NCBI GenBank assembly: GCA_947589545.1
Contig: CANQBA010000042.1
Span: 1-36,050, forward strand
DNA length: 36,050 nt
DNA from: an uncultured Oscillospiraceae bacterium
GTDB taxonomy: Bacteria; Bacillota; Clostridia; Oscillospirales; Oscillospiraceae
Direction of reading: 5' to 3'
Shown: one piece after another, positions 19,091-35,941 of the stretch
Layout: every line of letters begins with the position of its first letter
Position numbering within the stretch: the first letter of the stretch is position 1
Program-made: the position numbers and the translations under genes
The notes under the pieces: generated by a model
The model's input: the letters and a program-made list of their open reading frames with translations, nothing else
The model's database searches: none
Told to the model about the DNA's origin: nothing

Positions 19091-22000
19091 TTATAGACTC
19101 AGGTATTTTGTCAGGACTGTGGCAAGCTCCACGCGCCTGGCGGTGCCGGCGGGGTCGAAGCTGCCGTCGTCCTTGCCCTGGACGACCTTGTTCATACTGC
19201 ACCAGGCAACCGCCTCGTAGGCCCAATCGCTGACCTTCGCGCTGTCGGTGAAGCCCAGCGGGAACATCCACGCGCCGGTGAAGCCGCCGTCGCCGTATTT
19301 CTGCTCGTACCGGTAGAGCATGACGGCCATCTGCTCGCGGCTGATGGGATCGTCGGGGCCGAAGGTGCGGGCGTCGTAGCCGGTGACGATGCCCTCGCTG
19401 GCGGCCCAGCGGATGGCCTCCGCGTACCACTGATCCTCCTGCACGTCCTCAAAGGGCATCATGTAATTGACAACGCCGTTCCCGTTCATGTTCCAGAGGG
19501 TCGTGACCATCTGGGCGCGGGTGACGGTGCCGAGGGGATCAAAGGTGACGCTGTCCTCGCCGTGCATCAGATCGTGGGTGATGACGTAGTCGGTGTACGC
19601 ATGATACCACGCCGCCGCGTCCAGATCCTTGAACCTCCGGGACGGGCAGTCCGCGCCGCCGTCGCAGGCTGTGCGCTTAAAGGAGGCCCGGACGGTCACG
19701 CCGCTGTCGGGCATGGTGAAGGAGTAGGTGCCGTCGGCGTTCCTGACGGCGTCCACCGCCTTACCGGCGGCGTCGGTGACGGTGAGGGAATCCAGCTCAT
19801 ACCCGGTATCGGGGGTGACGGTGAGGGCCACCTTGCCGCCGGCGGCGGTCCGGGTGGGATCGGCTGTCACGGTACCGTGCTCCGGCTCAGTCACGGTGAC
19901 GGGGTAGACGGCGGCGGGCATCGGCGTGTTGGGCACGGGCGGGATGACCGCCGCGCGGATGATGGTGACGGTGTAGGTGGTTCCGTCGGCTACGGTTATC
20001 GTGACGATATTTTCGCCCACCGCCAGGTCGGAGACGGTGATGGTATAAACATCCTTGCCGGTAACAGTCTCATCCTTGGCGGGCGTCAATTCGGCGTCGC
20101 CCAGCTTCGCTGTGACCGTATCGTTCCGTATCGCCGTCGTGGCGGTGAGGGTCAGCTCCGTGACGTCGTTGGGGACGTTGACGGTGTAGGCCGTCTTGGA
20201 CGGGTCGAACGTCTCCATGGCTTCCGTTGAATCGGTCAAATCAAAAAGCATACCGTTCTTCAAGCTGACTACTGTGAAAGTAGAAAAGCCCTTTGCCGTA
20301 AAGCTCACAATTCTGTTTTGGAAATCAATAACGGTGTCGGTATAACGGTTTATTTTTCCATTATGATCGTGAATAATGAGTATTTTGGTGGAACCGGTCA
20401 GCCCACCTCCGAAGCCGCTGGGCAGCTTGATTTTCATCGGCACGTCAACTTCGATCTGCAAAGGCTTTTTGTCCAGTTCAACGGCGTTGACGTTTTCGCC
20501 TTCTTCTGATTCTTCCGGAAGGACAATATCGTCCATATCCGCCGCCGTGGTGGCCACGACCTCATAATACGGGGTGATGTCCAGCGTGAGGATGCCGGCG
20601 GCCTTGTCATATGTCTCTACCGTGGTTTCGACGATGGTCAGAACGTGGATGTAGACCTCCTCCGTGGCTTCAGGTTCTTTTCCGGTGGCACCCTTCAGCT
20701 GCTCTTTGACAGTCTCGGCCTTTTCCTCATCCGCCCATTCGCCGGCGGCGTCGTTCTGCTCCTCCATGGGAAGCTCCGCCGTGATACCGTCGAGGGCTTC
20801 GGTCACCGCCTCTTTATCACTCTCGCTGACCTTGTCAACATTCGCCTCCACGCTGGGCCTATCCACCTTGGCGGCCAGATCGTCCTCGTGGGCTTTCAGA
20901 ACAAGACTGCCCATGTTGTCCACGTAGGATTCAGCATAGCCCTCCCCCACCTTCGTGGAGGTAGTTCCGTCGGAGTAGGTGGAACCGGGTTTCAGATCCG
21001 CCGCCTTTTTGAAGCCGGACTTGACCCGGCTGTCGTCCTTCACCGTGAGGGTGGAGCTCGCGGCGCACTCAACGGCGGCGGTGGTGGTGCTGTCCGTCTC
21101 CACAAGCGTGGACACGGCTCTGGAACCGCCATCCTCAGACCCGTGCTTAGACAACTCCAACGTTCCGTTATTCACTATGACAGGCTCGGTCATGCTCTCG
21201 CCCTTCACATGGACGCCGGACAGGGTAACATCGCCGCTGTTTGTAAACTGTGTGCCGCTGAATTCAAAGATTGTGCCGTAATCATAACCTCTGTAAGGCT
21301 TTTGGGCAACACCTGGCGAGGTGACCGTCCATTGTGGAGGCGCCTTGTGTCCTTCCACCGACAGCGTTCCGCCCTCGTCCACCACAAGATCACCGCTGAA
21401 GACACAAGTCATCTGGGCGGAAATCCAAGATCTGCTTCCTTGGTATTTTCTGTTTGCATTATGGGAAAATTCCACAGAAGCGCCGCTCTGGATTTGCAAG
21501 CCATTTTCAAAGGCGATCGTGTTATTTTCATAGTTTTGCGTTGAAACGGACAAACCGGCGGGAATGGCCGTTGAGTCGTTCACGAACTTAAAATTGTCGG
21601 CGTAGATGGTGATGGTGTCGCTCTCATCCACTGCCGCGACAGCGGCATCAACGGGTTTTTTCGACGTGGGGGCAAAAACCAGCTTTTTGCTGATTTTCTT
21701 GTTGGCTCCGTCTTTGTTAAAGAAATGCAACTCAATCGGTTTTGAAAGATCTATCTTTTTTTCCTGCGTACCATCAATTGTACAGGAGCCTTTGGAAAGC
21801 CCCTCAAATAACGCTGTAAGTGTCGAAATCTTCCATCTGCTATATCCGGTGCCTTCGCCAAATTGATAATCATACCAGTTAACTTGAACTCCGTTCAAAT
21901 TTAATTCACTCTGTAAATGCTTGTCAGATCTAACGACGGTCGGCACTCCTTCATCTTCAAAATAGACAAGAAGCCAAATATCATCCAGGTTATCATTGGC

Positions 22001-22105
22001 CCCTGCGTCAGGCCCCTCCGCCGCTAACACCACTCCCGGCAGCAGCGCCGCGACCATGACTACCGCCAGAAGAAATGCAAGAAACTTACAAAAAAGTCTT
22101 TTCAT
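19091..22105 (-). CDS. Secreted surface protein with three S-layer homology domains
   Basis: This 1004-residue protein is exported by a signal peptide (about 1-28, cleavage near VVLAAEG). The first 400 residues are Ser/Thr/Asn/Gly-rich repetitive beta-structure of unknown role (for example NSGDVTLSGVHVKG and VDEGGTLSVEG). An acidic region follows (about 415-560), then a Cadherin-like beta-sandwich (about 640-715) and a bacterial repeat domain (HGTVTADPTR, VTPDTGYELDSL, about 735-805). Three SLH domains follow (about 820-875, 880-940, 947-1004; FKDLDAAAWYHAYTDYV, FEDVQEDQWYAEAIRWA, FTDSAKVSDWAYEAVAW). SLH domains hold proteins on wall polymers, so it is displayed on the surface. ATG 22105 follows AGGAGG by 7 bases. 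The only strong promoter upstream points the other way, between two inverted repeats (see 22119-22259). Confidence 0.9.
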   Translation of the reverse strand: MKRLFCKFLAFLLAVVMVAALLPGVVLAAEGPDAGANDNLDDIWLLVYFEDEGVPTVVRSDKHLQSELNLNGVQVNWYDYQFGEGTGYSRWKISTLTALFEGLSKGSCTIDGTQEKKIDLSKPIELHFFNKDGANKKISKKLVFAPTSKKPVDAAVAAVDESDTITIYADNFKFVNDSTAIPAGLSVSTQNYENNTIAFENGLQIQSGASVEFSHNANRKYQGSRSWISAQMTCVFSGDLVVDEGGTLSVEGHKAPPQWTVTSPGVAQKPYRGYDYGTIFEFSGTQFTNSGDVTLSGVHVKGESMTEPVIVNNGTLELSKHGSEDGGSRAVSTLVETDSTTTAAVECAASSTLTVKDDSRVKSGFKKAADLKPGSTYSDGTTSTKVGEGYAESYVDNMGSLVLKAHEDDLAAKVDRPSVEANVDKVSESDKEAVTEALDGITAELPMEEQNDAAGEWADEEKAETVKEQLKGATGKEPEATEEVYIHVLTIVETTVETYDKAAGILTLDITPYYEVVATTAADMDDIVLPEESEEGENVNAVELDKKPLQIEVDVPMKIKLPSGFGGGLTGSTKILIIHDHNGKINRYTDTVIDFQNRIVSFTAKGFSTFTVVSLKNGMLFDLTDSTEAMETFDPSKTAYTVNVPNDVTELTLTATTAIRNDTVTAKLGDAELTPAKDETVTGKDVYTITVSDLAVGENIVTITVADGTTYTVTIIRAAVIPPVPNTPMPAAVYPVTVTEPEHGTVTADPTRTAAGGKVALTVTPDTGYELDSLTVTDAAGKAVDAVRNADGTYSFTMPDSGVTVRASFKRTACDGGADCPSRRFKDLDAAAWYHAYTDYVITHDLMHGEDSVTFDPLGTVTRAQMVTTLWNMNGNGVVNYMMPFEDVQEDQWYAEAIRWAASEGIVTGYDARTFGPDDPISREQMAVMLYRYEQKYGDGGFTGAWMFPLGFTDSAKVSDWAYEAVAWCSMNKVVQGKDDGSFDPAGTARRVELATVLTKYLSL

Positions 22106-22118
22106 GTGCTTACCTCCT

Positions 22119-22144
22119 GTTTGAAAATGTGTACTTTTTCAAAC
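22119..22144 (-). repeat. Inverted repeat L, 26 bp, abutting the ribosome site
   Basis: On the minus strand it reads GTTTGAAAAAGT-AC-ACATTTTCAAAC. It is an imperfect palindrome with 11 of 12 matching pairs around a 2-base AC centre. It matches the repeat at 22234-22259 at 23 of 26 positions in opposite orientation. The AGGAGG of the surface-protein gene (22113-22118) is immediately outside it. Confidence 0.85.
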
Positions 22145-22177
22145 TGAAAATTCGCAGAAAAAATCTGTATTTTTTTC

Positions 22178-22206
22178 TTGCAAAAGCGGTCTAAATAAGG
22201 TATAAT
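22178..22206 (+). promoter_or_regulatory. Sigma-A promoter inside the inverted repeats, pointing right
   Basis: TTGCAA (22178-22183), a 17-bp spacer and a perfect TATAAT (22201-22206), with an A/T-rich upstream stretch. It points toward the 3' end of prmA and no plus-strand gene follows for over 1 kb. A weaker minus-strand pair, TTTTCC / 17 bp / TATAAA (22238-22243, 22215-22220), could give basal expression of the surface gene. Confidence 0.75.
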
Positions 22207-22233
22207 AAAATCGTTTTATAATCCCGTTTCGGA

Positions 22234-22259
22234 TTTTGGAAAAGTACACCTTTTCAAAC
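22234..22259 (+). repeat. Inverted repeat R, 26 bp
   Basis: On the plus strand it reads TTTTGGAAAAGT-AC-ACCTTTTCAAAC, the mate of the repeat at 22119-22144. It differs from it at positions 1, 6 and 17 and shares the AC centre in inverted orientation. Confidence 0.85.
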
Positions 22260-22290
22260 AAATTTTCCGCGTTTTTCCATATACTACGAC

Positions 22291-22320
22291 AAGGGATCTC
22301 TCCGCCGGGGGAGGTCCCTT
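22291..22320 (-). terminator. Hairpin downstream of prmA
   Basis: AAGGGA/TCCCTT outer and CTC/GAG plus GG/CC inner pairing make a stable stem 43 bases after the prmA stop. It has no U-run. It could limit readthrough from prmA into the surface-protein gene and also end transcripts from the right-pointing promoter at 22178. Confidence 0.5.
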
Positions 22321-22362
22321 GCGCCGTATAGGGCGTGCGCCCGCGCGGGGATAGACGCGCTT

Positions 22363-23286
22363 TTACCGGCAGATATACGCGTGCCAGCCGTCCTTTTCGC
22401 GGTGCTCCAGTACTCGCAGGCCCGCCTTTTCCAACGCGGCCTTCACCTCGGCTTGACGGCCCTCGATGATGCCGGAGCAGATGAAGGCGCCGCCGGGGGC
22501 CAGGAATTCCGGCACCTTGGGGGACAGGGCGATGATCACGTCGGAGACGATATTCATCAGCACAAGGCCGAATTTCTCCCCGGACAGCCGGCGGGAGAGC
22601 TCCCTGTCCGACAGTACGTCCCCGGCAAAGACGGCGAGCCTGTCCGGGCCGATGCCGTTGAAGCCGGCGTTCTCCATGACCACCGCCGGGGCCTTCTCGT
22701 CGATGTCCACCCCCACGGCCCTTTCCGCGCCCAGAAGCAGAGCCCCGATGGCCAGGATCCCGCTGCCGCACCCCAGATCCAGCACCGTTTGGCCGGGGGC
22801 GTATTTTTCGATTTCGGCAAGGCACAGCTGTGTGGTGGCGTGGGCGCCGGTGCCGAAAATAAGGCCCGGATCCAGCCGCAGCTCCACCCGCTCCGTCCCC
22901 GGGGCGGCCAGCCACTGGGGGACGATGACCAGCCTTTTCCCCACCTCGATGGGACGGTAGTACGCCCGCCAGTTGTTCTCCCAATCCTCGTCGCGAACCT
23001 GACGGGGGATCAGCTCAAAGGCGGGGAGCGCCGCCTCCAGCCCCGCCAGCGCCGCCCTGCCGGCGTGGGAGTCCTCCAGATAGAACTTCACCCGGCACAC
23101 CCCGGCCATGCTTTTCATGAAGTCCTCGTCCACGTAATCCCAATATTTTCTGTTATTTTCCAGAAAATCCCTCACATCCGCCTCGTCCTCGGTGATAAAG
23201 CCCTCCACGCCCAAAGCGGTGAGCCGGCTTGTCAGGGGCTCCAGCTTTTCATGGGAAGTGTTCACGGTTATCTCAAGCCAGTTCAT
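22363..23286 (-). CDS. prmA: Ribosomal protein L11 methyltransferase
   Basis: This 307-residue SAM-dependent enzyme trimethylates lysines and the N-terminus of L11. The N-terminal substrate-recognition domain (about 1-90) starts with the typical MNWLEITVNTSHE. The Rossmann domain has VLDLGCGSGILAIGALLLGA (SAM motif I), VGVDIDEKAP (motif II) and LVLMNIVSDVI (the NI(V/L) active-site motif). ATG 23286 follows GAGAGG. It diverges from the ferritin-like gene at 23365, with a shared 78-bp promoter region. Confidence 0.95.
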   Translation of the reverse strand: MNWLEITVNTSHEKLEPLTSRLTALGVEGFITEDEADVRDFLENNRKYWDYVDEDFMKSMAGVCRVKFYLEDSHAGRAALAGLEAALPAFELIPRQVRDEDWENNWRAYYRPIEVGKRLVIVPQWLAAPGTERVELRLDPGLIFGTGAHATTQLCLAEIEKYAPGQTVLDLGCGSGILAIGALLLGAERAVGVDIDEKAPAVVMENAGFNGIGPDRLAVFAGDVLSDRELSRRLSGEKFGLVLMNIVSDVIIALSPKVPEFLAPGGAFICSGIIEGRQAEVKAALEKAGLRVLEHREKDGWHAYICR

Positions 23287-25427: not shown

Positions 25428-26402
25428 TCACGCGTCAAAGGTGGGCAGGATGGCGTCCACGGCGTCCCGCTCCGGCATGGAGCGGATGGCGCCCTTTTTA
25501 GTGGTGACCAGATATGCGGCGGCGTTGGCAAAGCGGAGCATGGCGGTGAGATCCTTATCGGACAGGGCCGTGAGGCCGTGATCCAGTACGAAGTTCAGCA
25601 CACAGGCGCAGAAGGTGTCGCCGGCGCCGGTAGTCTCGATGGTGCCGCCCAGGGTGACGCCGGGGACGTAGACGTGCCGTCCGCCGTAGTAGGCGTGGCT
25701 CCCGTCGGGGCCGGCGGTGACGTTCAGGAGCCTGATGTTGGGGTACTGGGCCAGGAGCATGGCCGCGCCGGTATCGAAGTCGGTCTGGCCGGTCATGAAT
25801 TCCAGCTCGTTGTCGGCTATTTTTACCACATCCGCGTGGGCCAGGCCCCAGCCGATGCGCTCCTTGGCCTCCTCCAGACTCGCCCACAGGGGCGGGCGGA
25901 GGTTGGGGTCGAAGGAGACGACGGCCCCGGCGGCGCGGGCGACGGTGACGGCGATCTCCGTGGCGGCCCGAACGCCGGGATGGGTCATGGAGAGAGTGCC
26001 GAAGTGGAAAACGCGGGCGCTCTCGATGAGTTCCCGGGGCAGCTCGTCGGCCCGGAGCGTCATATCCGCGCCGGGGTTGCGGTAAAAGGAGAAGTCCCGA
26101 TCCCCGCCGGGGAGGGTCTTCACAAAGGCCAGGGTGGTACGGGCCTCCCGATCCACCAAAAGGCCGCGCATGTCGATGCCCGCATCCTCGGCCACGGCCT
26201 TGAGGGTTTTGCCGAACATATCGTCCCCCACCTTGCCGATGAAGGCGGTCTTTTTGTTAAGCTTCCGGAGCATGGCCAGCACGTTGCAGGGCGCGCCGCC
26301 GGGATTGGCCTCAAAGAGGGTGTTCCCCTGGGGACTTACGCCGTTCTCGGTGAAGTCCATCAGCAGTTCGCCCAGGGCCGCTACGTCAAACCGTTCACGC
26401 AT
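25428..26402 (-). CDS. scrK: Fructokinase (PfkB/ribokinase family)
   Basis: This 324-residue sugar kinase has the two PfkB signatures: GGAPCNVLAMLRKL near the N-terminus and ETTGAGDTFCACVL near the C-terminus, whose Asp is the catalytic base. FDPNLRPPLW and VKIADNELEFM are typical of fructokinases. It converts fructose with ATP to fructose-6-phosphate. The last gene of the fructan locus, 12 bases after the cytoplasmic GH32, so its substrate is very probably the fructose released by that enzyme. Specificity is inferred from context and family. Confidence 0.92.
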   Translation of the reverse strand: MRERFDVAALGELLMDFTENGVSPQGNTLFEANPGGAPCNVLAMLRKLNKKTAFIGKVGDDMFGKTLKAVAEDAGIDMRGLLVDREARTTLAFVKTLPGGDRDFSFYRNPGADMTLRADELPRELIESARVFHFGTLSMTHPGVRAATEIAVTVARAAGAVVSFDPNLRPPLWASLEEAKERIGWGLAHADVVKIADNELEFMTGQTDFDTGAAMLLAQYPNIRLLNVTAGPDGSHAYYGGRHVYVPGVTLGGTIETTGAGDTFCACVLNFVLDHGLTALSDKDLTAMLRFANAAAYLVTTKKGAIRSMPERDAVDAILPTFDA

Positions 26403-26414
26403 AGGTGCGCCTCC

Positions 26415-27902
26415 TCAATCGATAATCAGGTCGTATTTCTCCACATCCATGATCACGCTGCCCATGGACTCGAAGCTGATGGCGTCGGCGCTGACGTCGG
26501 TGTAGATCACCGTGGTGGCCGCCTGTTCGCCGTCGTTGACGAAGAGCTCCATGCTGTACTTGTCCAGCAGGATGCGCAGCTTGATCTCACCGCCCCGGGG
26601 CCTTACCACGAAGTCGCGGACATTGACGATGTCGTGGGGAAAGCCGCAGCGGGTGCGGTCGATGCGGATGGTGTTGCATTCGGGCTTATAGCGGATGGTG
26701 GTCATATGCTCGCCGTCCCCGGCCACGTTGATCTTGAACCAGCTGTACATGGCGTTCTGGGAGGCGGGACGGATGTTTACCGTCATGTCCACCACGCGGC
26801 CCCGCACGTTTTGCAGGGTAGTCATCCCCGTGAGAAGTACGTTGCGGTACAGGATCTGATAGCTTCTGCATGCCTTCAGCTCCCGCACCGGGTTCTGATA
26901 GAGCCGGCCGTCTCTGAGGGCCAGCTCCCGGGGCACGGTCATCTGGCCGAAGCACCGCATACTGGAGGACTGGCAGTTGGACGTCTCCCAGTTCTGCATC
27001 CAGCCGATCATCACCCGCCGCCCGTCGGGGGTCAGGAGCGTCTGGGGGGCGTAGAAGTCGAGGCCGTAGTCGATGGCCTGGACATTCTCCCGGACAAGAT
27101 GGCACCTCTCCCTGTCCAGCTCGCCGATGAGGCACAGGGTGCCGTTGCCGGCGTGGAATTCCAGGCCGATGGCGGTCATCTCCTGGGGGCTGGTGAGCAG
27201 GACGTGCTTGCCGTTCAGCTCGAAGAAGTCCGGACACTCCCACATTCGACCGAACTGGTTGTGGCAGGCGGCCAAGACGCCCCCGTATTTCCAGTGGAAG
27301 CCGTCGGCGCTCTCATACATCAGCACGGAGCCGCTCCCATCGGCGGGGCGGTTGCCCACCACCAGATAGAAGGTGTCCCCCTCCCGCCAGATCTTGGGGT
27401 CGCGGAAGTCGAAGGGACTTCCGCCCGCGGGCAGGTCGTCGGCTGTGATGACGGGGTTTTCGGCGTATTTTTCGTAATTGAGGCCGTCACCCACCGCCAC
27501 GCATTGGGTCTGATGTTCCCGCAGCTCGCCGTTTTCCTCCCGCACCGCCTTGACGCCGGTGTACACCAGCAGCTGGCGGCCGTCGTCCAGCTCTATGGCG
27601 CTGCCGGAGAAGCAGCCGTTTCTGTCGTAATCCATATCCGGGGCCATCGCCGCGGGCAGGCGCTCCCAGTGGATAAAGTCCTTCGTCTTCACATGCCCCC
27701 AGTGCATGGGGCCCCACTTGGTGTCGTAGGGGTGGTACTGGTAGAACAGGTGGTACTCCCCCTTGTAGAGGGAGAAGCCGTTGGGGTCGTTCATCCAGCC
27801 GATGGTGGGGGTCAAATGATAGGACGGACGGTTTTTATCCTGGATAAAGGGCCCGTAATGGGCCTCGAAATCTCTCGCTTTTTTGAGTTTTTCACTGATC
27901 AT
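26415..27902 (-). CDS. Cytoplasmic GH32 beta-fructosidase (sucrose/sucrose-6-phosphate hydrolase type)
   Basis: This 495-residue GH32 hydrolase has no signal peptide. The catalytic triad is clear: WMNDPNG (nucleophile D39), FRDPK (transition-state Asp 168) and WECPDFF (acid/base E222). The five-blade propeller (about 28-340) is followed by a C-terminal beta-sandwich. It should cleave imported fructo-oligosaccharides or sucrose into fructose and a remainder. As the importer is an ABC system and not a PTS, an unphosphorylated substrate is likelier than sucrose-6-phosphate. ATG 27902 follows AGGAGG by 12 bases and overlaps the YesL-like gene by 11 bases. Confidence 0.93.
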   Translation of the reverse strand: MISEKLKKARDFEAHYGPFIQDKNRPSYHLTPTIGWMNDPNGFSLYKGEYHLFYQYHPYDTKWGPMHWGHVKTKDFIHWERLPAAMAPDMDYDRNGCFSGSAIELDDGRQLLVYTGVKAVREENGELREHQTQCVAVGDGLNYEKYAENPVITADDLPAGGSPFDFRDPKIWREGDTFYLVVGNRPADGSGSVLMYESADGFHWKYGGVLAACHNQFGRMWECPDFFELNGKHVLLTSPQEMTAIGLEFHAGNGTLCLIGELDRERCHLVRENVQAIDYGLDFYAPQTLLTPDGRRVMIGWMQNWETSNCQSSSMRCFGQMTVPRELALRDGRLYQNPVRELKACRSYQILYRNVLLTGMTTLQNVRGRVVDMTVNIRPASQNAMYSWFKINVAGDGEHMTTIRYKPECNTIRIDRTRCGFPHDIVNVRDFVVRPRGGEIKLRILLDKYSMELFVNDGEQAATTVIYTDVSADAISFESMGSVIMDVEKYDLIID

Positions 27903-28569
27903 CGGAATCTGTTTCCTCCTCGCTCTCACGCGCTTCCGCCGCCGTCTCCTTTTCCAGATCCTCGGGCCGCATGTGGAGCCTGAATACGCGCTCCGTTGTG
28001 AAGCTGACCACCGCGAACACCGCCGCCGGCATGATCAGCGCCATAAACGGAACCAGCAAGATGAGCGCCAGCCCCGCGAAAAGCACGGCCAAAACGCCCA
28101 GCATTTTAATGGGGTGGAGCGCCATGAGCATGAAGCCGAACTTCAGAACCTCTTTCACGCTCCCGTCAAATCTGGCCGCGTAGGCGGCCACATAGACGCC
28201 CCAGGTATAGGCCAGCGCCCACAGCGCCAGCACCACGTAGTAGAGCGCCCCCATGGCGCCGCCGGCCAGCCGGATCCCCCGCAGGACGGACACGTCCACG
28301 GTCAGCAGGGCCAGCACCGCCGCCACCACCAGCCAAAGGAGGGTGGAGCGCCTGAAATTTTCCCGGAAGGCGTTCCAGAAGCACCGCCACAGGCCGCCCT
28401 CTTTTTTCCGGATCACGTGGTAGGCCGCGGCGTAGAGGGCGGTAGTGGAGGCGCCTGCGGTGACGACGGGCAGGGAGAATACGATCCACAGTACGCTGAG
28501 ACAGATGCAATCTCCGATGGAGGTGAGCGCAGACATGAGGGGACTGTCGTAGCTGAAAAGACCTTTCAT
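27892..28569 (-). CDS. YesL-like (DUF624) membrane protein
   Basis: This 225-residue integral membrane protein has about five hydrophobic helices (for example ALTSIGDCICLSVLWIVFSL, and around 75-92, 105-130, 150-185) and an acidic tail rich in Glu/Asp. The start MKGLFSYDSPLM and the GD(C)xxLSxLW pattern are typical of DUF624/YesL proteins. These accompany CUT1 sugar ABC systems in Firmicutes; their molecular role is not known. Here it sits between the extracellular and cytoplasmic GH32 genes, so it probably supports fructan uptake. Confidence 0.85.
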   Translation of the reverse strand: MKGLFSYDSPLMSALTSIGDCICLSVLWIVFSLPVVTAGASTTALYAAAYHVIRKKEGGLWRCFWNAFRENFRRSTLLWLVVAAVLALLTVDVSVLRGIRLAGGAMGALYYVVLALWALAYTWGVYVAAYAARFDGSVKEVLKFGFMLMALHPIKMLGVLAVLFAGLALILLVPFMALIMPAAVFAVVSFTTERVFRLHMRPEDLEKETAAEARESEEETDSDDQ

Positions 28570-28623
28570 ATGTTCTCCCTTGCCTTTCGCCGTCCCGCGA
28601 GGACGGAAAATAGTCGCCGATTT

Positions 28624-30363
28624 TTACGCCCTTGTGTACTCCCGGAGGGAGGTGAAGAGCACGGAATTGTTCTCGGCGAAGATCTGGATGGTCTTGCCGC
28701 TGACGCCGTAGAGGCGGACGGTCAGGGCCGCGATCCCGTCGATGTAGAAGATGCCAACGGAGCCCTCCTGGATGTAGGTGAAGGAGTAGGTCTCCCCGGC
28801 CTGAAGCGGGGCGGCTGTCTCGGTGATCAGGGTGCTGCCCTGGTTAAAGCTGAGGCTCAGAGTGCCGTTGGCGGGGTTGATGGTGATGAACTTGTTCTTT
28901 TCGGCCCTGTTGTTGTAATTGAAGCTGAGGCCGAAGGAGCCGGCACCGGTGAATTTGAATTCGCCGGTGAGCAGGAAGCTCTCGTAGCAGGTGAAGGCGT
29001 CGGCGTAGTTGTAGGCCGCGCCGGCGGCCACATAGGCGTGGGTGCCGCCCTCACAGGGCAGCTCCCGGCGGGCCGTGAAGGTGTCGGCAATGGCGTCCAC
29101 CGGATCTAAGGCCAGGGTGCCGTCGGGGTTCTGCAGGATCTCCTGCACCGCCACGTTGCCGGCCCAGGCCGCCACGTCCTGGGTGGAGGAGGGGGATTCG
29201 GAGCGGCGGGCCCAGCCCACCATGTAGTACTTCCCGTCGTTCTCCACGTGCTTGGCCGCGTAGAAGAGCTTGCCGTCCAGACGGACGGGGTCGCCGTAGG
29301 GGCCGTAGGGGGTGTCGGACATGGCATACCAGAGGGTGTCGTCCTGGGCGGAGTAGGTGATGTAGTACTTGTCGCCAATCTGGAAGGTGTCGCTGCACTC
29401 CAGGTTCCAGAAGTCGCCGTTCTTCGCCTCGTCGTTGGTGAAGATGACGCCATCGTAGTGCTTATTCTCCAGATCCGGCGACACGGTGTATTTGAGGATG
29501 CGGGCCACGCCGCCCTGGGCGGCGGTGACGGTCAGGATGATGTTGCCGGTGTCGGGATCCACATAGCCCTGGGGATCCCGGAAGTCGTTCTTCTGGCCCA
29601 GCTCTGCGGGAGGCGTGATCTCCCAGCCCTCCAGCTTCTCAAAGGAGGTGGGGGTGTCGCCCACGGCCACCATGATCTTCTCGGCGTACTCCAGAACGGC
29701 GCCGTTGCCGTGCCCGGTATAGAAGAAATAGTACTTCCCGTCAACCTTTACCACGGATCCGGTGCCGATCCAGCTGTCCTGGCCGCCGTCGTGGTTGGCC
29801 TCCAGGACGGACTCATCGTACTCGGTGTAGGTGACGAAATCCGTGGTAGTGGCCAGGTAGGCCGAGTGGTTGTAGGAGTCTCCGGCCTCCTTCAGGTAGT
29901 AGATGTAGTAGGTGCCGTCCTCGTAGTAAGGCATGGTGTCGCCCACATAGGGCTGGCTGGTGCCATCCTTTTCGGGCTGGAAAAAGGCGCTGTATTCATA
30001 CGCCTCCTCCTGGCTTCCGGGACTTCTGAGGGAGGAGAAATCCTTGTCGTTGCCGGGATCAGTGACGGTGTCGCCGGTATCCCTGTCCCAGCCGGCGTAG
30101 AGGGTCATATTGCCCTCCACCTTGTCCTTGGCCATATCGAAGCTCTCGGTGAGGCCGGCGTCCTTGAACCAGCCGATGAAGCTGTAGCCGTCCTTTGTGG
30201 GGGCGGCGGGGGCGGACGCCTTTTTCCCGCCCTTGATGGTCTGGGCCTCGATGGCTGTCCCGGCGGACTCCGCGTCAAAGCTGACGGTGTATTCGGCGGA
30301 GGAGCAGGCCGCCAGGGAGAGGATCAGGACGAGGCACAGCGCCGCGCAAAGAAATTTTTTCAT
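28624..30363 (-). CDS. Extracellular GH32 lipoprotein (fructan hydrolase) with N-terminal InlB-type repeat
   Basis: This 579-residue lipoprotein has a signal peptide with lipobox LAAC (Cys20). A Listeria-Bacteroides (InlB B / Flg_new) repeat follows at about 26-92 (KDGYSFIGWFKDAG, MTLYAGW). The catalytic propeller starts near 125: GDTMPYY (predicted nucleophile D142), FRDPQGY (D263) and LECSDTF (E322 acid/base). The GDxMPYY form differs from WMNDPNG of the cytoplasmic enzyme and belongs to a separate GH32 branch. The C-terminal third (about 420-579) is a lectin-like beta-sandwich that may bind fructan. It should cut fructans such as levan or inulin at the cell surface. Endo or exo action cannot be told. 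Confidence 0.88.
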   Translation of the reverse strand: MKKFLCAALCLVLILSLAACSSAEYTVSFDAESAGTAIEAQTIKGGKKASAPAAPTKDGYSFIGWFKDAGLTESFDMAKDKVEGNMTLYAGWDRDTGDTVTDPGNDKDFSSLRSPGSQEEAYEYSAFFQPEKDGTSQPYVGDTMPYYEDGTYYIYYLKEAGDSYNHSAYLATTTDFVTYTEYDESVLEANHDGGQDSWIGTGSVVKVDGKYYFFYTGHGNGAVLEYAEKIMVAVGDTPTSFEKLEGWEITPPAELGQKNDFRDPQGYVDPDTGNIILTVTAAQGGVARILKYTVSPDLENKHYDGVIFTNDEAKNGDFWNLECSDTFQIGDKYYITYSAQDDTLWYAMSDTPYGPYGDPVRLDGKLFYAAKHVENDGKYYMVGWARRSESPSSTQDVAAWAGNVAVQEILQNPDGTLALDPVDAIADTFTARRELPCEGGTHAYVAAGAAYNYADAFTCYESFLLTGEFKFTGAGSFGLSFNYNNRAEKNKFITINPANGTLSLSFNQGSTLITETAAPLQAGETYSFTYIQEGSVGIFYIDGIAALTVRLYGVSGKTIQIFAENNSVLFTSLREYTRA

Positions 30364-30431
30364 GTAATCGACCTTCTTCCGATGGGAGGTTATTGATACA
30401 GAATGTGTTGGAAAAGTTGAAGGTAAAGGGG

Positions 30432-30462
30432 CAGAGGGGATGGGTAGTGCTCATCCCCTCTG
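30432..30462 (-). repeat. Stem-loop between lipoprotein and GH32 genes
   Basis: A perfect 11-bp stem CAGAGGGGATG with its complement and a 9-base loop lies 18 bases after the stop at 30480. There is no U-run, so it is more likely to stabilise the upstream mRNA (abundant binding proteins) or to cause partial termination inside the operon. Confidence 0.6.
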
Positions 30463-30479
30463 TGAGGTATTGATCCGGT

Positions 30480-32288
30480 TTACGCTACGCTTCTCTGGGA
30501 GATGGTGATGCTGCTGATCTCGATGGTGACCTCGCCCATGGCGGCAAGATCGTTGGAGCCGAACTGGAACAGCATCTCAAAGGGCATCTCCATGATCAGG
30601 GTGTCGGTGGTCTCAAAGGTGAAGGTCTGCTCCTCGGTGGTGAAGTCGATGCCCTCGGAGACTCTGGGATCCCAGCTGCCGGCGGGATTCAGGAAGAAGC
30701 CGCAGGAGACGGGCTTGGTGGCCTTGCCGGTGATGGTCACGGTGAAGTAGCTGTCGGCGGGCAGATCCATGTTCATGTAGAGCTTGTTGTGCCAGTCGGT
30801 GGTGCCGCCCTGGTCGATGCGGTAGTAGAGCTTGCCGCCCTCGGTCCAGATGGTGCCGACGCCCAGCTCGTTGTCCTCATCGGTGCCGTTGTAGACGCCC
30901 CAGGTGTAATCCTCGGCCTCGGCGCGGACGGCGGCGAAGCTGTCGATGGTCTTGTGCGTCTCCAGGTCGCCCTCCATCTTGCCGAACTCCAGGTTCGTCA
31001 CAGTGATGGTGTTGCCGGTGACGCCGTCGGCGGGATTGCCGATCTGCATACGGATGACGGGGTCGTCCACGTTGTTCCCGGCGGTGAAGATGTGCTCGAT
31101 GGTGATCTCCTCACCGGCCTTCAGGTTCAGGCTGTAAAAGTCGGCGCGGGCCGCGTCGTTCTGGGAGGCGCTCTCCACCAGGAGCTCGCCGGACTGGTCG
31201 TTCTCGGCCACAACGGTGAACCTGTAGTAGTACTTGGTGCCGGACTCGATCTTGTTGCCGCCAAGGCCCATATCGGCCTTGATGCTCCAGATGCCGCCCT
31301 CGGTGGGATAGTTGGCGATGGTGTAGACGGCCTTGCCCTCGCCGTCGGCACCGGTGCCGTTGGCGCCGTCACCGGCGTTCAGGACTACAGCGTCAATGGA
31401 CTTCTGGGAGAAGTCGTTGGTGTAGACGGGAACCTCCGTCTGGGAACCGGTGATCTCGTAGATCTCGATCTTGTCGATGGTGACGGTCACGTCGCTGGCG
31501 GTGGTGTCAGCGGGGTTATCGGGGTTGGGGGTGATCTTGCCCAGGTGGATCAGGAGCTCCGCGCTGCCCTCGCCGGGGGAGGTGAAGCTCAGCTCATAGG
31601 GGGCGATCTCGGTGCCAATCTTCACGTTGTAGGCGCCGCCGAAGGTCTCCCAGCCCTCGGCCTGCTCGTTGCGGGCCAGCAGGTGGGCGTAGGTCTCCTT
31701 GGTGGCCTTGGCCCAGACCTTCACCTTGTAGTCGGCGGCCTTCAGCTCAAGGCCGGCCTTGGCCAGCTTCACGTCGCCGTCGCCCTCGCCGGGGTTGGCG
31801 ATCTCAAAGACGAAGGCGCCCTGCTTCAGCTCGCCGGTGGCGCTGGCGGACTCGCCCACAGAGGCGGCCCAGCCGTGAGCGTCGGGAGTGATGTCGGAGA
31901 AGTCAAAGTTGAAAAGCTCCACCGCCTCGCCGGTCTGGCGGGTGACGGTCAGGGTGGCGTAGGCCTCGGCGGTCTCGCCGCCCTTGTCGGTGACGGCGTA
32001 GGTCAGCTCATAGGAGCCGGCCTTATCAGGGACGACCTTGCCGTTGGAGAAACTGAGGGAGGGGTTGGAGGTGACGGTGATCATGCTTGTCAGGTCGCCG
32101 TCCTCGGCGTCGGAGGCGGTGACGCCGGCCAGAGCGTTGAACTCGCTGCCGGCCTCAACAGCCTGATCGGCCACGCCGGAGATGGTGGGGGCGGTATTCT
32201 CGCCGTCCTGGCCGCCGCCGCAGGCGGCCAGGGAGAGGGCCATGGTCAGGCAGAGGACCAGGGCCAGAATCTTGTTCAGTTTTTTCAT
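30480..32288 (-). CDS. Carbohydrate-binding-module lipoprotein of unknown exact role
   Basis: This 602-residue lipoprotein (ATG 32288; lipobox LAAC, Cys23) has no catalytic motif I recognise. Modules in order: an Ig-like/DUF5011 domain (about 29-110, AEDGDLTSMITV, DKAGSYELTYAVTD), then two beta-sandwich modules like CBM4/9 (about 125-275 and 285-430). A third sandwich (about 445-600) has WTEGGKLYYRI and GFFLNPAGSWDPR. Aromatic residues suit sugar binding. It sits between the solute-binding protein and the extracellular GH32, so a surface fructan-capture protein is the simplest idea. That role is inferred from location and fold, not demonstrated. Confidence 0.75.
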   Translation of the reverse strand: MKKLNKILALVLCLTMALSLAACGGGQDGENTAPTISGVADQAVEAGSEFNALAGVTASDAEDGDLTSMITVTSNPSLSFSNGKVVPDKAGSYELTYAVTDKGGETAEAYATLTVTRQTGEAVELFNFDFSDITPDAHGWAASVGESASATGELKQGAFVFEIANPGEGDGDVKLAKAGLELKAADYKVKVWAKATKETYAHLLARNEQAEGWETFGGAYNVKIGTEIAPYELSFTSPGEGSAELLIHLGKITPNPDNPADTTASDVTVTIDKIEIYEITGSQTEVPVYTNDFSQKSIDAVVLNAGDGANGTGADGEGKAVYTIANYPTEGGIWSIKADMGLGGNKIESGTKYYYRFTVVAENDQSGELLVESASQNDAARADFYSLNLKAGEEITIEHIFTAGNNVDDPVIRMQIGNPADGVTGNTITVTNLEFGKMEGDLETHKTIDSFAAVRAEAEDYTWGVYNGTDEDNELGVGTIWTEGGKLYYRIDQGGTTDWHNKLYMNMDLPADSYFTVTITGKATKPVSCGFFLNPAGSWDPRVSEGIDFTTEEQTFTFETTDTLIMEMPFEMLFQFGSNDLAAMGEVTIEISSITISQRSVA

Positions 32289-32303
32289 GCTGTCGTCCAC
32301 TCC

Positions 32304-33995
32304 TTATTTCACGGAAACATACCGGTCATAAGCGGCCTGATAGACGCCCTGGATCTCATCCAAGTGAGTGCGCCCGGTCAGATCGTTCTGGAAGGTGGTC
32401 CAATCGCCGTCGCTGACGCCGCCGTTCATGAGCCACTTGATGAGGTTGGTGCGGATGTAGTCGTTGAGGGCGGATTCATACTGGGTGATGGTGTTCAGCT
32501 CGTCGGCGGTGAACTGCAGGTTGGGGGTGGGGGTGGTGCCTTCGGGCAGGTACGGGGTCACATAGGCGTCCAGACGCTCAAGACGGAGCTTGGCGCGGGG
32601 CTCCATGTTGACCACATGCTCCCAGGCGTAGTCGCTGAGGTAGATGATGCCGAGAGGGGCGTTCTGGAGACGGAGCTCGTCGGTGGTCATGCCGGCGGGG
32701 ACTTCCTTCTGCACCAGCATACCGTTGGCGTCCAGCTCCTCCTCATAGACGATGCCGATGGGGCCGTAGTTGATCTGCGCGGAGATCATGGGATCGTAAT
32801 AGCGGTCGAAATAGGTCAGCAGGACTTCCACGTTGGGGGTGTCGGAGAAGATGATGACTTCGCCGGTGCTGATTTCGGGGCTGTTGGAGACGCAGGCGGT
32901 CTGGGACTTGCCGTCAGGCCCGATGAGGGGGGCGCAGACGATGTAGTTCTCGGGGTTGGAGACGACAGTCTCGCTCTCCCACCAGTAGAAGAAGCCATAA
33001 GTCTCGGCGCCCTTGCCATTGGCCAGGAAGTTATCCTGGCTGATCTCGAAGGAGACCTTGTCGATGAGGTTGTTGGTGACCCAGTTTGCGATGAAGTTGG
33101 TGGCTTCCTTGAAGCGCTCGTCCTGGACGGTGTAGGTGATCTTGCCGTCCACCACGACGCGGTGCTCCAGGTTGTCGTTGAGGCCGAACATGCCGTAGAG
33201 GTCGCACTGATTGCCCTGCCAGTTGTTGTAGACGAAGCTCATGGGACGCTCGTCGTCGGTCTTGCCGTTGCCGTTCATGTCGTTGTCGCGGAAGTAGGTC
33301 ATCAGCTTCTCGGCCTGGGCGGCGGTGAGGCTGAGACCGTCCTTCAGATCCGCCTCGGTGAGGCCGTCAACAGCGCCGGCCTTGATGGCCGCGGCGGCCC
33401 AGTTCTTGTTGAGGAAGAGGATGTTGGGGCTCTGGAGAAGGCCCATCTCCTCTACGCGGGGCAGGGAATAGATCTTGCCGTCCTCGCTGGTGAGCTGCGC
33501 CTTGATGTCGGGGCGCTCGTCCAGGATCTTCTTGAAGTTGGGCATGTACTCTAAGTAGTCGCTGACGGGCAGGAGCTTGTGACGGGAGGCGTACTTGTTG
33601 ATCTCGCCGGCGGTCATGCCCGCGTGATAGATGGCGTCGGGCTGATTCTCGGCATTGCCCAGGATCAGGTTCTTCTGCTGGCTGTAAACGGACTCGGACA
33701 CGTTCTCCCAGGAGACGTTCACGTTGGTGCTCTCGTAAAGATCCTGCATGATCTTCATGTCGTTGTAGTCAAGAGCGGACGCGTTCTTGGAGGAATAGAT
33801 GGTGAAGGTGATGTCCTGAGCGCCCTTGTCGTTGAGGATGGGGGCGCTGGTGTCGGCCCACTGGTAGCCGTATTCGGAGACCAGGGAATCCACGTCGGAG
33901 CTCTCGCGGTTGTCGTTTTTCTTCCCGCCGCCGCCGCAGGATGCCAGGGTCAGCACCATGGCCAGGAGAAGAAGGATGGATACTGTCTTTTTCAT
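32304..33995 (-). CDS. Extracellular solute-binding lipoprotein of a CUT1 sugar ABC importer
   Basis: This 563-residue lipoprotein has a signal peptide ending in LASC (Cys20) and a Gly/Lys/Asn linker. The mature part is the large LipO-type binding protein of family 1 (ITFTIYSSKNASALDYNDMK, then GKIYSLPRVEEMGLLQSPNI; DNDMNGNGKTDDERP looks like a calcium-binding loop). It delivers oligosaccharide to the two permeases encoded upstream. Size and order (permeases, then binding protein) are typical of this class. Within this locus the ligand is probably a fructo-oligosaccharide. Confidence 0.92.
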   Translation of the reverse strand: MKKTVSILLLLAMVLTLASCGGGGKKNDNRESSDVDSLVSEYGYQWADTSAPILNDKGAQDITFTIYSSKNASALDYNDMKIMQDLYESTNVNVSWENVSESVYSQQKNLILGNAENQPDAIYHAGMTAGEINKYASRHKLLPVSDYLEYMPNFKKILDERPDIKAQLTSEDGKIYSLPRVEEMGLLQSPNILFLNKNWAAAAIKAGAVDGLTEADLKDGLSLTAAQAEKLMTYFRDNDMNGNGKTDDERPMSFVYNNWQGNQCDLYGMFGLNDNLEHRVVVDGKITYTVQDERFKEATNFIANWVTNNLIDKVSFEISQDNFLANGKGAETYGFFYWWESETVVSNPENYIVCAPLIGPDGKSQTACVSNSPEISTGEVIIFSDTPNVEVLLTYFDRYYDPMISAQINYGPIGIVYEEELDANGMLVQKEVPAGMTTDELRLQNAPLGIIYLSDYAWEHVVNMEPRAKLRLERLDAYVTPYLPEGTTPTPNLQFTADELNTITQYESALNDYIRTNLIKWLMNGGVSDGDWTTFQNDLTGRTHLDEIQGVYQAAYDRYVSVK

Positions 33996-34037
33996 TTTGT
34001 GACCTCCATAATATTTTGCTTGGGTTTTTGTCTCGAA

Positions 34038-34946
34038 TCAGCCCTTGAGGGAGCCGATCATAACGCCCTGGCTGAAGTATTTCTGTACGAAGGGGTACAG
34101 GCACAGCACGGGGACGCTGGACACGATAACGGAGACGTACTTGATCTGGTTGGCCATGCGGTACTGCTCCAGGATCGTCTCGCCTGTGCCGCCCATGGTG
34201 CTCTCGGAGGCGATGAGGATCTCCTTCAGAACCAGCTGCAGGGGGTACATGTTCTCGTTCTGCAGGAAGATCATGGCGTTGAAGTAGCTGTTCCACTGGC
34301 CGATGGCGTAATAGAGGGCCATGACCGCCAGAATGGCCTTGGAGAGGGGCAGAACCAGGGAGGTGAACACCCTGTATTCGCCGGCGCCGTCGATCTTGGC
34401 GGCCTCCACCAGACCGTCCGGGATGCTGGTCTCAAAGAACGTCTTGGTCATGAAGAGGTTCCACACCGAGAGGATGGAGGGGAGCACGATGGCCCAGATG
34501 TTGTTGATGAGTCCCAGGGAGCTCATGACGTTGTAGAAGGGGATCAGGCCGCCGCCGAAGAACATGGGGATGATGAAGTAGATCATCCAGAACTTCTTGC
34601 CGGGGATGGTCTTGCGGCTCAGGCCCCAGCCGGCGGGAATGGTCACCGCCAGGGACAGGATCACGGTGAGGCCGGTGTAGATGATGGTGTTGAGGTAGCC
34701 TCTCCAGATGCTGGTCTCCTGGAGGATCCGCTTGAAGCCGTCCAGGGTGATCTGCACGGGGTACAGGATCACCTGGCCGCCCAGAACGGCGTCCGGGTCG
34801 GAGATGGAGGCGATGACGATGAAGTAGAGGGGGTAGATGACGATGATGGCCATGAGGGCCAGGAAGATGGTGTTGATGGTATAGAACACCTTATCGCCCG
34901 CGGAGAGGCGGATGGGAGCGCGCTTCGTCGCTGCTTTTACTGACAT
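34038..34946 (-). CDS. CUT1 sugar ABC permease (LplC/YtcP type)
   Basis: This 302-residue permease has six membrane helices. The cytoplasmic EAA loop that contacts the ATPase is at EAAKIDGAGEYRVFTSLVLP. ATG 34946 is 8 bases behind AAAGGAGG; a GTG at 34967 would overlap the upstream gene and has no ribosome site. It forms a heterodimeric channel with the permease encoded 14 bp upstream. Confidence 0.93.
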   Translation of the reverse strand: MSVKAATKRAPIRLSAGDKVFYTINTIFLALMAIIVIYPLYFIVIASISDPDAVLGGQVILYPVQITLDGFKRILQETSIWRGYLNTIIYTGLTVILSLAVTIPAGWGLSRKTIPGKKFWMIYFIIPMFFGGGLIPFYNVMSSLGLINNIWAIVLPSILSVWNLFMTKTFFETSIPDGLVEAAKIDGAGEYRVFTSLVLPLSKAILAVMALYYAIGQWNSYFNAMIFLQNENMYPLQLVLKEILIASESTMGGTGETILEQYRMANQIKYVSVIVSSVPVLCLYPFVQKYFSQGVMIGSLKG

Positions 34947-34960
34947 TTCTTTTTCCTCCT

Positions 34961-35941
34961 TTACCACAGGGAATTCTCGGAGAACTTCTTGGAGGTGGTA
35001 TTGGCGATGATCAGCAGGATCACGTTGATGATGGAGTTAAAGAGACCGATAGCCGTGGCGTAGCTCTGGTTGGGTACGCCGGTAAGACCCTGTTTGTAAA
35101 CGTAGGTGGCGATGATCTCGCTGACCTCCAGGTTGCCGTCGGTCATCATCAGCAGGACCTTCTCGTAGCCCACGCCCATGAGGCCGCCGATGGACATGAT
35201 GAGCATGACGCTGATCATGGGCATGATGGCCGGCAGATCCACGTGGATGACCCGCTGGAAGCGGGAAGCGCCGTCCAGGATGGCCGCCTCGTGCTGGCCC
35301 AGGTCAACGTTGGAGAGGGCCGCGATGTAGATGATGGAGGACCAGCCGAAGTCCTGCCAGTTGGAGGAGAGGATGTACAGGGGCCGGAAGGCCTTGCTCT
35401 CCAGGAAGTAGGACACGCGCTCGCCGCCGAAGTGGGCCACGATGTTGTTCACCAGACCGTAGCGGCCGAAGAACAGGGTCAGCATACCGACCAACACCAC
35501 CAGGGAGATGAAGTGTGGGCCGTTGAAGATGGTCTGCAGGGTCTTGCTCATCTTCTTGCTCTTCATGGCGTTGAGCATCAGGGCGATGATGATGGGCAGG
35601 GGGAAGCCGATGATGAAGCCGTAGATGCACAGCAGGAAGGTGTTCTTCATCAGGGGCCAGAACTGCACGTCGGTAAAGAACCGGGTGAAGTTCTTAAAGC
35701 CGATCCAGCGGGTGTACTCGCCCAGAATGGGGTCGCCGGGCATGAAGTCCTGGAAGGCGATGAGCACGCCGTAGATGGGCAGGTAGTTGAACAGGAACAC
35801 GACGAGAACCGCGGGGAAGATCATGATCAGGAACGGGTGGTTGTCCCGGAGCCTTCTCCATGCCCTGGCGGATTTGCTGCCGCCCTTCTGCACCGCGTTG
35901 GCGGGCGCCTGGGAGGCGGGGCCGTCTTTGACTTTTTGCAT
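34961..35941 (-). CDS. CUT1 sugar ABC permease (LplB type)
   Basis: This 326-residue permease has an N-terminal cytoplasmic tail rich in Ala/Lys, then six helices beginning with FLIMIFPAVLVVFLFNYLPI. The EAA loop is EAAILDGASRFQRVIHVDLP. It is the typical LplB-like partner of LplC/YtcP permeases. It is followed directly by the second permease and preceded by the end of an ATPase gene. Confidence 0.93.
   Translation of the reverse strand: MQKVKDGPASQAPANAVQKGGSKSARAWRRLRDNHPFLIMIFPAVLVVFLFNYLPIYGVLIAFQDFMPGDPILGEYTRWIGFKNFTRFFTDVQFWPLMKNTFLLCIYGFIIGFPLPIIIALMLNAMKSKKMSKTLQTIFNGPHFISLVVLVGMLTLFFGRYGLVNNIVAHFGGERVSYFLESKAFRPLYILSSNWQDFGWSSIIYIAALSNVDLGQHEAAILDGASRFQRVIHVDLPAIMPMISVMLIMSIGGLMGVGYEKVLLMMTDGNLEVSEIIATYVYKQGLTGVPNQSYATAIGLFNSIINVILLIIANTTSKKFSENSLW

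Follow-up and report, generated by a model that had tools for sequence, protein, structure and literature searches.

A dispersed family of probably invertible promoter cassettes in front of large surface-protein genes in an Oscillospiraceae genome

Mpi of Bacteroides fragilis is described as inverting 13 regions (PMC4747536), and BT1927 of Bacteroides thetaiotaomicron as an S-layer gene behind an inverting promoter that lies between inverted repeats (PMC12548429). The Cdi switches of Clostridioides difficile are presented as short segments that can invert, placed ahead of genes for cell-wall proteins and flagella (PMC5903667). An account of a defined gut community gives a median of 3 invertons per genome for Firmicutes_A, and links a clostridial group most strongly to tyrosine-type enzymes (PMC11892184). 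Among the matches listed in our literature search there was no paper on invertible promoters of SLH proteins.

Here we describe a locus of this kind from an uncultured Oscillospiraceae bacterium, whose genome assembly (G000) comprises 3.83 Mb in 148 contigs; the window, that is, the whole stretch of 36 050 nucleotides analysed, is contig C42. The original prediction was that an SLH surface-protein gene in the window is phase-variable through an invertible promoter and is off in this sequence. As the state in this assembly the off call stands, the promoter facing away from the gene. The phase-variable reading is strengthened by 12 further complete cassettes in the same genome, by the occurrence of both orientations among them, and by a family of serine invertases found beside such sites, which together suggest that inversion occurs in the strain. 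The window cassette is one of about fourteen near-identical, dispersed, probably flippable cassettes before large surface-protein genes, and it very probably forms part of a phase-switch regulon flipped by a small serine invertase, most likely that of contig C34.

The window cassette

The inverted-repeat search reported a single repeat at the settings used between positions 21700 and 22700, namely the pair of arms listed in Table 1. The predicted 26-bp inverted repeats therefore exist, and the number of identities is corrected from 23 to 24 of 26 (92%), with 91 nt between the arms. With up to 3 mismatches, the 24-bp motif matched the window at these two arms only (three rows, one of which is the left arm on the other strand), and it was absent from 100 shuffles of the window. 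The promoter TTGCAA/17/TATAAT was found between the repeats and directed away from the surface-protein gene, as had been claimed; it scores 10/12 against TTGACA/TATAAT, and no minus-strand promoter passed the scan of 21900-22500. Reading of the sequence also bore out that the AGGAGG of the SLH gene touches the left repeat. Since prmA is encoded on the minus strand, nothing visible on the right needs a plus-strand promoter, in agreement with the prediction. The leader of approximately 60 bases expected after inversion agrees with simple arithmetic: 52 bases separate the -10 box from the end of the site and a further 14 lead to the ATG, from which about 7 are subtracted.

The product of the presumed target gene has three SLH domains, one divergent InlB B-repeat and one cadherin-like domain, and its N-terminus resembles a signal peptide by eye. 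The hairpin in the distal flank was likewise seen by eye, and none passed the terminator scan. Farther to the right, an apparent fructan locus occupies positions 25428-35941 of the minus strand, with two GH32 proteins, a pfkB kinase, two ABC permeases and surface/lipoprotein genes.

Table 1. Positions of the cassette components in the window, and of related features in the same genome
Feature	Position	Strand	Remark
Left arm, gene-proximal recombination site	22118..22143	+	24-bp motif at 22120-22143
Right arm, distal recombination site	22235..22260	-	24-bp motif at 22235-22258
Interior of presumed invertible segment, 91 bp	22144..22234	no strand	comparison with other cassettes
Promoter TTGCAA-17-TATAAT, directed away from SLH gene	22178..22206	+	promoter scan; same place in 13/13 complete cassettes
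Ribosome-binding site AGGAGG, abutting proximal arm	22112..22117	-	read from sequence
SLH-domain surface protein gene, 1004 aa, presumed target, OFF in this assembly	19091..22105	-	domain matches
Distal flank with hairpin-like stretch	22261..22322	no strand	~84% identity over 64 bp to C35b distal flank
prmA, next gene to right	22363..23286	-	gene call and domain match
Complete inverted pairs in G000	contigs C2, C3, C13, C26, C35 (two: C35a, C35b), C38 (C38b), C42 (window), C67, C72, C85, C89, C96		
C34 serine invertase, close family member in G000	G000:C34:40640-41257 = L090 7641-8258		helix GTFYSRA
C11 serine invertase	G000:C11:80308-80908 = L092 end		61% identical to C34

Cassettes of one build across the genome

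A search of G000 with the motif TTTGAAAANGTGTACTTTTYCAAA, allowing up to 3 mismatches, gave 42 strand-wise matches at 27 places, 21 of which are exact; the reversed motif, used as a control, gave 0. These 27 sites make up 13 complete inverted pairs and one half-pair at the start of contig C38, and a search of G000 for a second copy of this half-cassette (a mixed junction) found the one copy only. The spacing of the pairs from start to start is 115 bp, except in C26 (114 bp). All 13 pairs enclose a promoter, TTGCAA-17-TATAAT in 10 and TTGCAA-17-TATACT in 3, whose distance to the downstream end of the pair is 52 bp, and the segment interiors are 58-100% identical among cassettes. For fourteen genes, including the left gene of C35a, which is cut by the contig start and was read by eye, the start lies exactly 14 bp beyond a site, and the encoded N-termini are of the type MKRQICKLLAILLA. 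The cassettes have the arrangement of an inverton, a promoter between inverted repeats upstream of a gene. SLH domains were recognized in eight of the 14 genes (C42, C2, C3, C35a right, C38 start, C85, C96 and C13). The gene fragments of C67 and C72, cut at contig ends, gave none in a domain scan, and for the similarly cut genes of C26, C38b, C89 and C35a left, which were covered by the genome-wide listing, that listing shows none.

Homologous cassettes occur in both orientations. Among the 11 complete single-gene cassettes the promoter points toward the gene in six (C3, C13, C26, C67, C72 and C96) and away from it in five (the window, C2, C38b, C85 and C89); C35b and C85 also differ in this respect. 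The promoter of the C38 half-cassette faces its gene, as judged by eye from the -10 box. No flip was seen in this strain, which is represented by one assembly in which the cassettes are repeats.

Each arm is a near-palindrome, and the bases that vary within it suggest where exchange takes place. Twelve cassettes were compared, C13 being left out because of its degenerate arms, and segment lineages were assigned from interior identities. At base 9 of the site, 11 of 12 distal arms carry G and none of the 12 proximal arms does, so that this base stays with the flank. Of the 12 arms in which segment lineage predicts C at base 20, 10 have it, as against 1 of the 12 others; base 20 is also associated, less strongly, with the flank (9/12 versus 2/12). 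Because base 9 is tied to the flank and base 20 to the lineage, strand exchange would most simply be placed between base 9 and base 20, around GTGTAC. In 12 of the 13 cassettes both arms share one central dinucleotide, and C67, the exception, is predicted not to flip. Use of the arm variants as a record of each flip was given up, base 20 being not simply an ON/OFF mark and fitting segment lineage better.

A second genome of the family, G203, carries contigs C60 and C208 that end in the same 55 bases, starting exactly at a GTATAC core, and that differ at base 9, just outside the shared bases. This segment end is found nowhere else in that assembly; one segment end on two flanks is probably what an assembler makes of a segment present in both orientations. 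The C208 flank leads to csrA and flagellin, and the C60 flank to a hairpin seen by eye.

Contig C35 has a more complex arrangement. C35a sits between two divergent genes, so that one would be on while the other is off, and C35b, 4.7 kb away, has a gene start 14 bp outside on neither side. C35b and C85 have interiors that are 100% identical, and over 300 bp the left flank of C35b is 97% identical to the distal flank of C85, with the promoter in the opposite direction relative to the flank. Both arms of C35a are of the proximal type at base 9, and both arms of C35b of the distal type. Since inverting the stretch from C35a to C35b would give two tandem genes, each with its cassette, the arrangement appears to have arisen by a 4.7-kb inversion between cassettes; taken alone, it could also be a misjoin at a repeat.

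Recombinases beside the sites

We screened 250 genomes of the family, G000 among them, for a strict pair pattern in which the outer arms were left free. Seven genomes matched, with 10 pairs in G000, three in G239, two in G005 and one in each of four others (control, 0); in this sample no genome other than G000 had more than 3 pairs by the strict pattern. Seven of the nine pairs outside G000, which were found blind, lie within 100 bp of a related serine recombinase, the exceptions being G239:C22 and G239:C45.

We then compared 30 recombinase loci, comprising the C34 enzyme and relatives 68-82% identical to it, and counted inverted pairs with at least 18 of 24 positions matching that lie no more than 330 bp past the stop codon. 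Such a pair is present just past the stop in 17 of the 25 related invertases with enough sequence and absent in the other 8. On the 5' side of the same loci pairs were found in 0 of 29, and two shuffles per locus gave none. The other serine and tyrosine recombinases of G000, a control set from which the family members L040 and L041 are excluded, had pairs in 0 of 41 (3') and 0 of 48 (5'). L065, L071 and L074 have no pair on the 5' side, and L071, the one with sufficient 3' sequence, has none there. With the threshold lowered to 17 of 24, the counts are 17/25 (3') and 1/29 (5') for related invertases and 0/40 and 1/45 for other recombinases, without L065, L071 and L074. All this argues for a strong linkage of this serine-recombinase family to such sites.

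The site cores at these invertases are, by reading, GTGTAC, GTATAC or GTGTAG, and are the same in both arms in 16 of 17 pairs (L109 differs). Enzymes with an FYxKA helix have a TTTG-type end in 5 of 6 pairs and those with a TFRxxA helix in 0 of 10 (Fisher p = 0.0014, for classes drawn after the data had been seen; L113 fits neither). The C34 helix, GTFYSRA, corresponds to the TTTG-type sites of G000. In G239, an enzyme 76% identical to C34 abuts a pair nearly the same as those of G000, with an SLH protein next in line; another SLH protein of that genome lies behind a second pair.

The enzyme that would flip the cassettes is most likely the C34 invertase, acting in trans. Beyond the invertase gene, contig C34 ends in 77 bases of which 75 agree with the terminator and SLH gene end of C85, so that an SLH gene seems to converge on the invertase from 112 bp away. 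The nearest solved relatives of the C34 enzyme are Sin and gamma-delta resolvase, with a DNA-invertase also among the solved relatives. At the codon that is ATG in its relatives, C34 reads ATC, and an in-frame TTG lies upstream; its expression is therefore uncertain. Translation may in fact begin at this TTG or at a rare codon, and expression could then be low. There may also be a second enzyme, since the contig that carries the C11 invertase breaks off, at the end where the gene lies, within a site-like fragment, AAAAAGTACACTTT. The C11 invertase may serve a separate switch.

Sites of this type also occur elsewhere. The region 21800-22500 had no match in phage records. The 24-bp motif had no exact match in IMG/VR, and it matched none of the other four genomes that represent the window's genus in the family sample. 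In GTDB r220 contigs one exact pair only was found, in a rabbit Lachnospiraceae MAG (these collections may omit the window's own genome). This locus (L083, 2206-2357) has two perfect 24-bp GTATAC palindromes 128 bp apart. In G203, such sites precede csrA and then flagellin (L088, contig C208, 680-3353, and the end of L087), and in G212 a csrA-like gene follows an invertase-linked pair (L114, 822-1376); phase switching of a global regulator and of flagella is thus possible there. A TnpB-like gene (Cas12f1-like, OrfB_IS605) follows an invertase-linked pair in L100 (969-2243), and L106 and L114 look similar by eye; L100 may hold an RNA-guided nuclease, or a derivative of one, behind an invertible promoter. 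In G005 a flagellin-like gene lies beyond an invertase-linked site pair (L113, 3-938). In G030 a divergent pair, 126 bp apart, is found near a flagellin-like gene (L086, contig C73, 7793-8404), beside a 148-aa protein that has an invertase C-terminus and no family match and is perhaps an invertase turned regulator.

Alternatives and comparison with known systems

In the mechanism that we propose, each cassette would be a promoter segment of approximately 91 bp between inverted 24-bp sites, directly before the ribosome-binding site of a surface gene, the targets being of the SLH type wherever a C-terminus is readable. A small serine invertase, most likely that of C34 in trans, would recombine the two sites and so flip the promoter. 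Directed toward the gene, the promoter would give a leader of about 60 bases and the gene would be on; directed away, it would fire into the distal flank and the gene would be off. Sites of different cassettes could also recombine, which would invert whole genes.

The cassettes could be invertible and yet be flipped by another recombinase, the serine invertase at C11:80308 or a tyrosine recombinase, which is unlikely. The genome has many recombinases (27 resolvase-domain and 56 phage-integrase-domain matches), and the C11 enzyme has both its similarity to C34 and the site-like fragment at its contig end; however, the helix of C34 goes with TTTG-type sites and that of C11 is different, C34 adjoins an apparent SLH gene end, and none of the 41 other recombinases with enough 3' sequence has a pair beside it. 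Less probable still is that the cassettes were once invertible and are now frozen, with orientations as evolutionary relics and each gene constitutively on or off. The doubtful start codon of C34, the unlike central dinucleotides of C67 and the degenerate arms of C13 would be in keeping with this, as would the partial agreement of orientation with segment lineage (lineage I is off in four of five single-gene cassettes and lineage II on in four of five), because of which some orientations may be old. In contrast, the sites have remained nearly identical despite the drift of the interiors, which suggests that they are still under selection, and the difference in orientation between C35b and C85, with their identical interiors, is recent.

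Two further readings deny inversion itself or the family. If the arms were operators for a DNA-binding regulator, flanking an ordinary promoter, their near-palindromic form and the G030 protein, with its invertase C-terminus and no recognised resolvase domain beside such a site, would find an explanation; operators, however, leave unexplained a promoter directed away from the gene in 5 of 11 cassettes, and recombinases adjoin the sites, so that this reading is very improbable. Equally hard to maintain, and if anything harder, is that the family or its differing orientations are artefacts of repeat assembly. The assembly is fragmented into 148 contigs and several cassette genes are cut at contig ends, but interiors and flanks differ between most loci, the 14-bp distance is the same for every gene, and the same build precedes two SLH genes in G239.

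A regulon flipped most likely by the C34 invertase is preferred to these four readings, and a wider view may be put forward tentatively, with chances somewhat short of even. In this wider view the genome would hold a Gram-positive combinatorial coat switch, in which about fourteen interchangeable cassettes, served by one serine invertase, control a large SLH repertoire, flip singly and also recombine with one another, moving whole genes under active promoters. It would amplify a single-site type of module that is common in its family and consists of invertase, invertible promoter and target gene; in that family the C-terminal helix of the invertase would predict the site, and switches and targets could be read from sequence. 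Under the proposed mechanism itself, one DNA-flipping enzyme could change the surface coat of the cell, about fourteen cassettes would allow up to 2^14 coat states per strain, and such variation would perhaps help the strain to evade phages or immunity. The helix-site link would give a rule by which such switches could be found. The community median for Firmicutes_A given above (PMC11892184) may be set against the roughly fourteen like-built cassettes of this one genome.

Among the systems described, Hin/Gin likewise combines dyad sites with a small serine recombinase that carries a helix-turn-helix at its C-terminus; G000 differs in its many sites per genome. Sites of the Hin/Gin type are dyads of approximately 26 bp. 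BT1927 is alike in being a phase-variable S-layer protein gene with a promoter between inverted repeats, and its product is not known to be an SLH protein. The C. difficile switches share short invertible segments before surface genes in a clostridium. Their master enzyme, RecV, is a tyrosine recombinase, whereas the enzymes adjoining sites of the G000 type carry a resolvase (serine) domain. The original prediction had drawn on invertible surface-gene promoters of Bacteroides and C. difficile; the likeness to C. difficile is less apt than that to Mpi, because the sites are linked to a serine recombinase.

As in the Mpi regulon, in which one serine recombinase is held to invert many dispersed surface-gene promoters, the sites in G000 are many and dispersed; the likeness is one of sites, with one enzyme predicted to act on all of them. 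Unlike Mpi, the C34 enzyme scores 47.4 bits on the NCBIfam Mpi model NF009949, against a cut-off of 272 bits (C11, 59.9; the G239 enzyme, 49.6), the targets would be SLH proteins in a bacterium of another phylum, and in relatives of the C34 enzyme the invertase adjoins a single site pair. Our verdict is that the regulon would work like that of Bacteroides Mpi, but with a different serine recombinase and with SLH targets. The mechanism is a known one; what appears to be new is that a set of SLH cassettes has been amplified under a single invertase and shows signs of exchange among its members.
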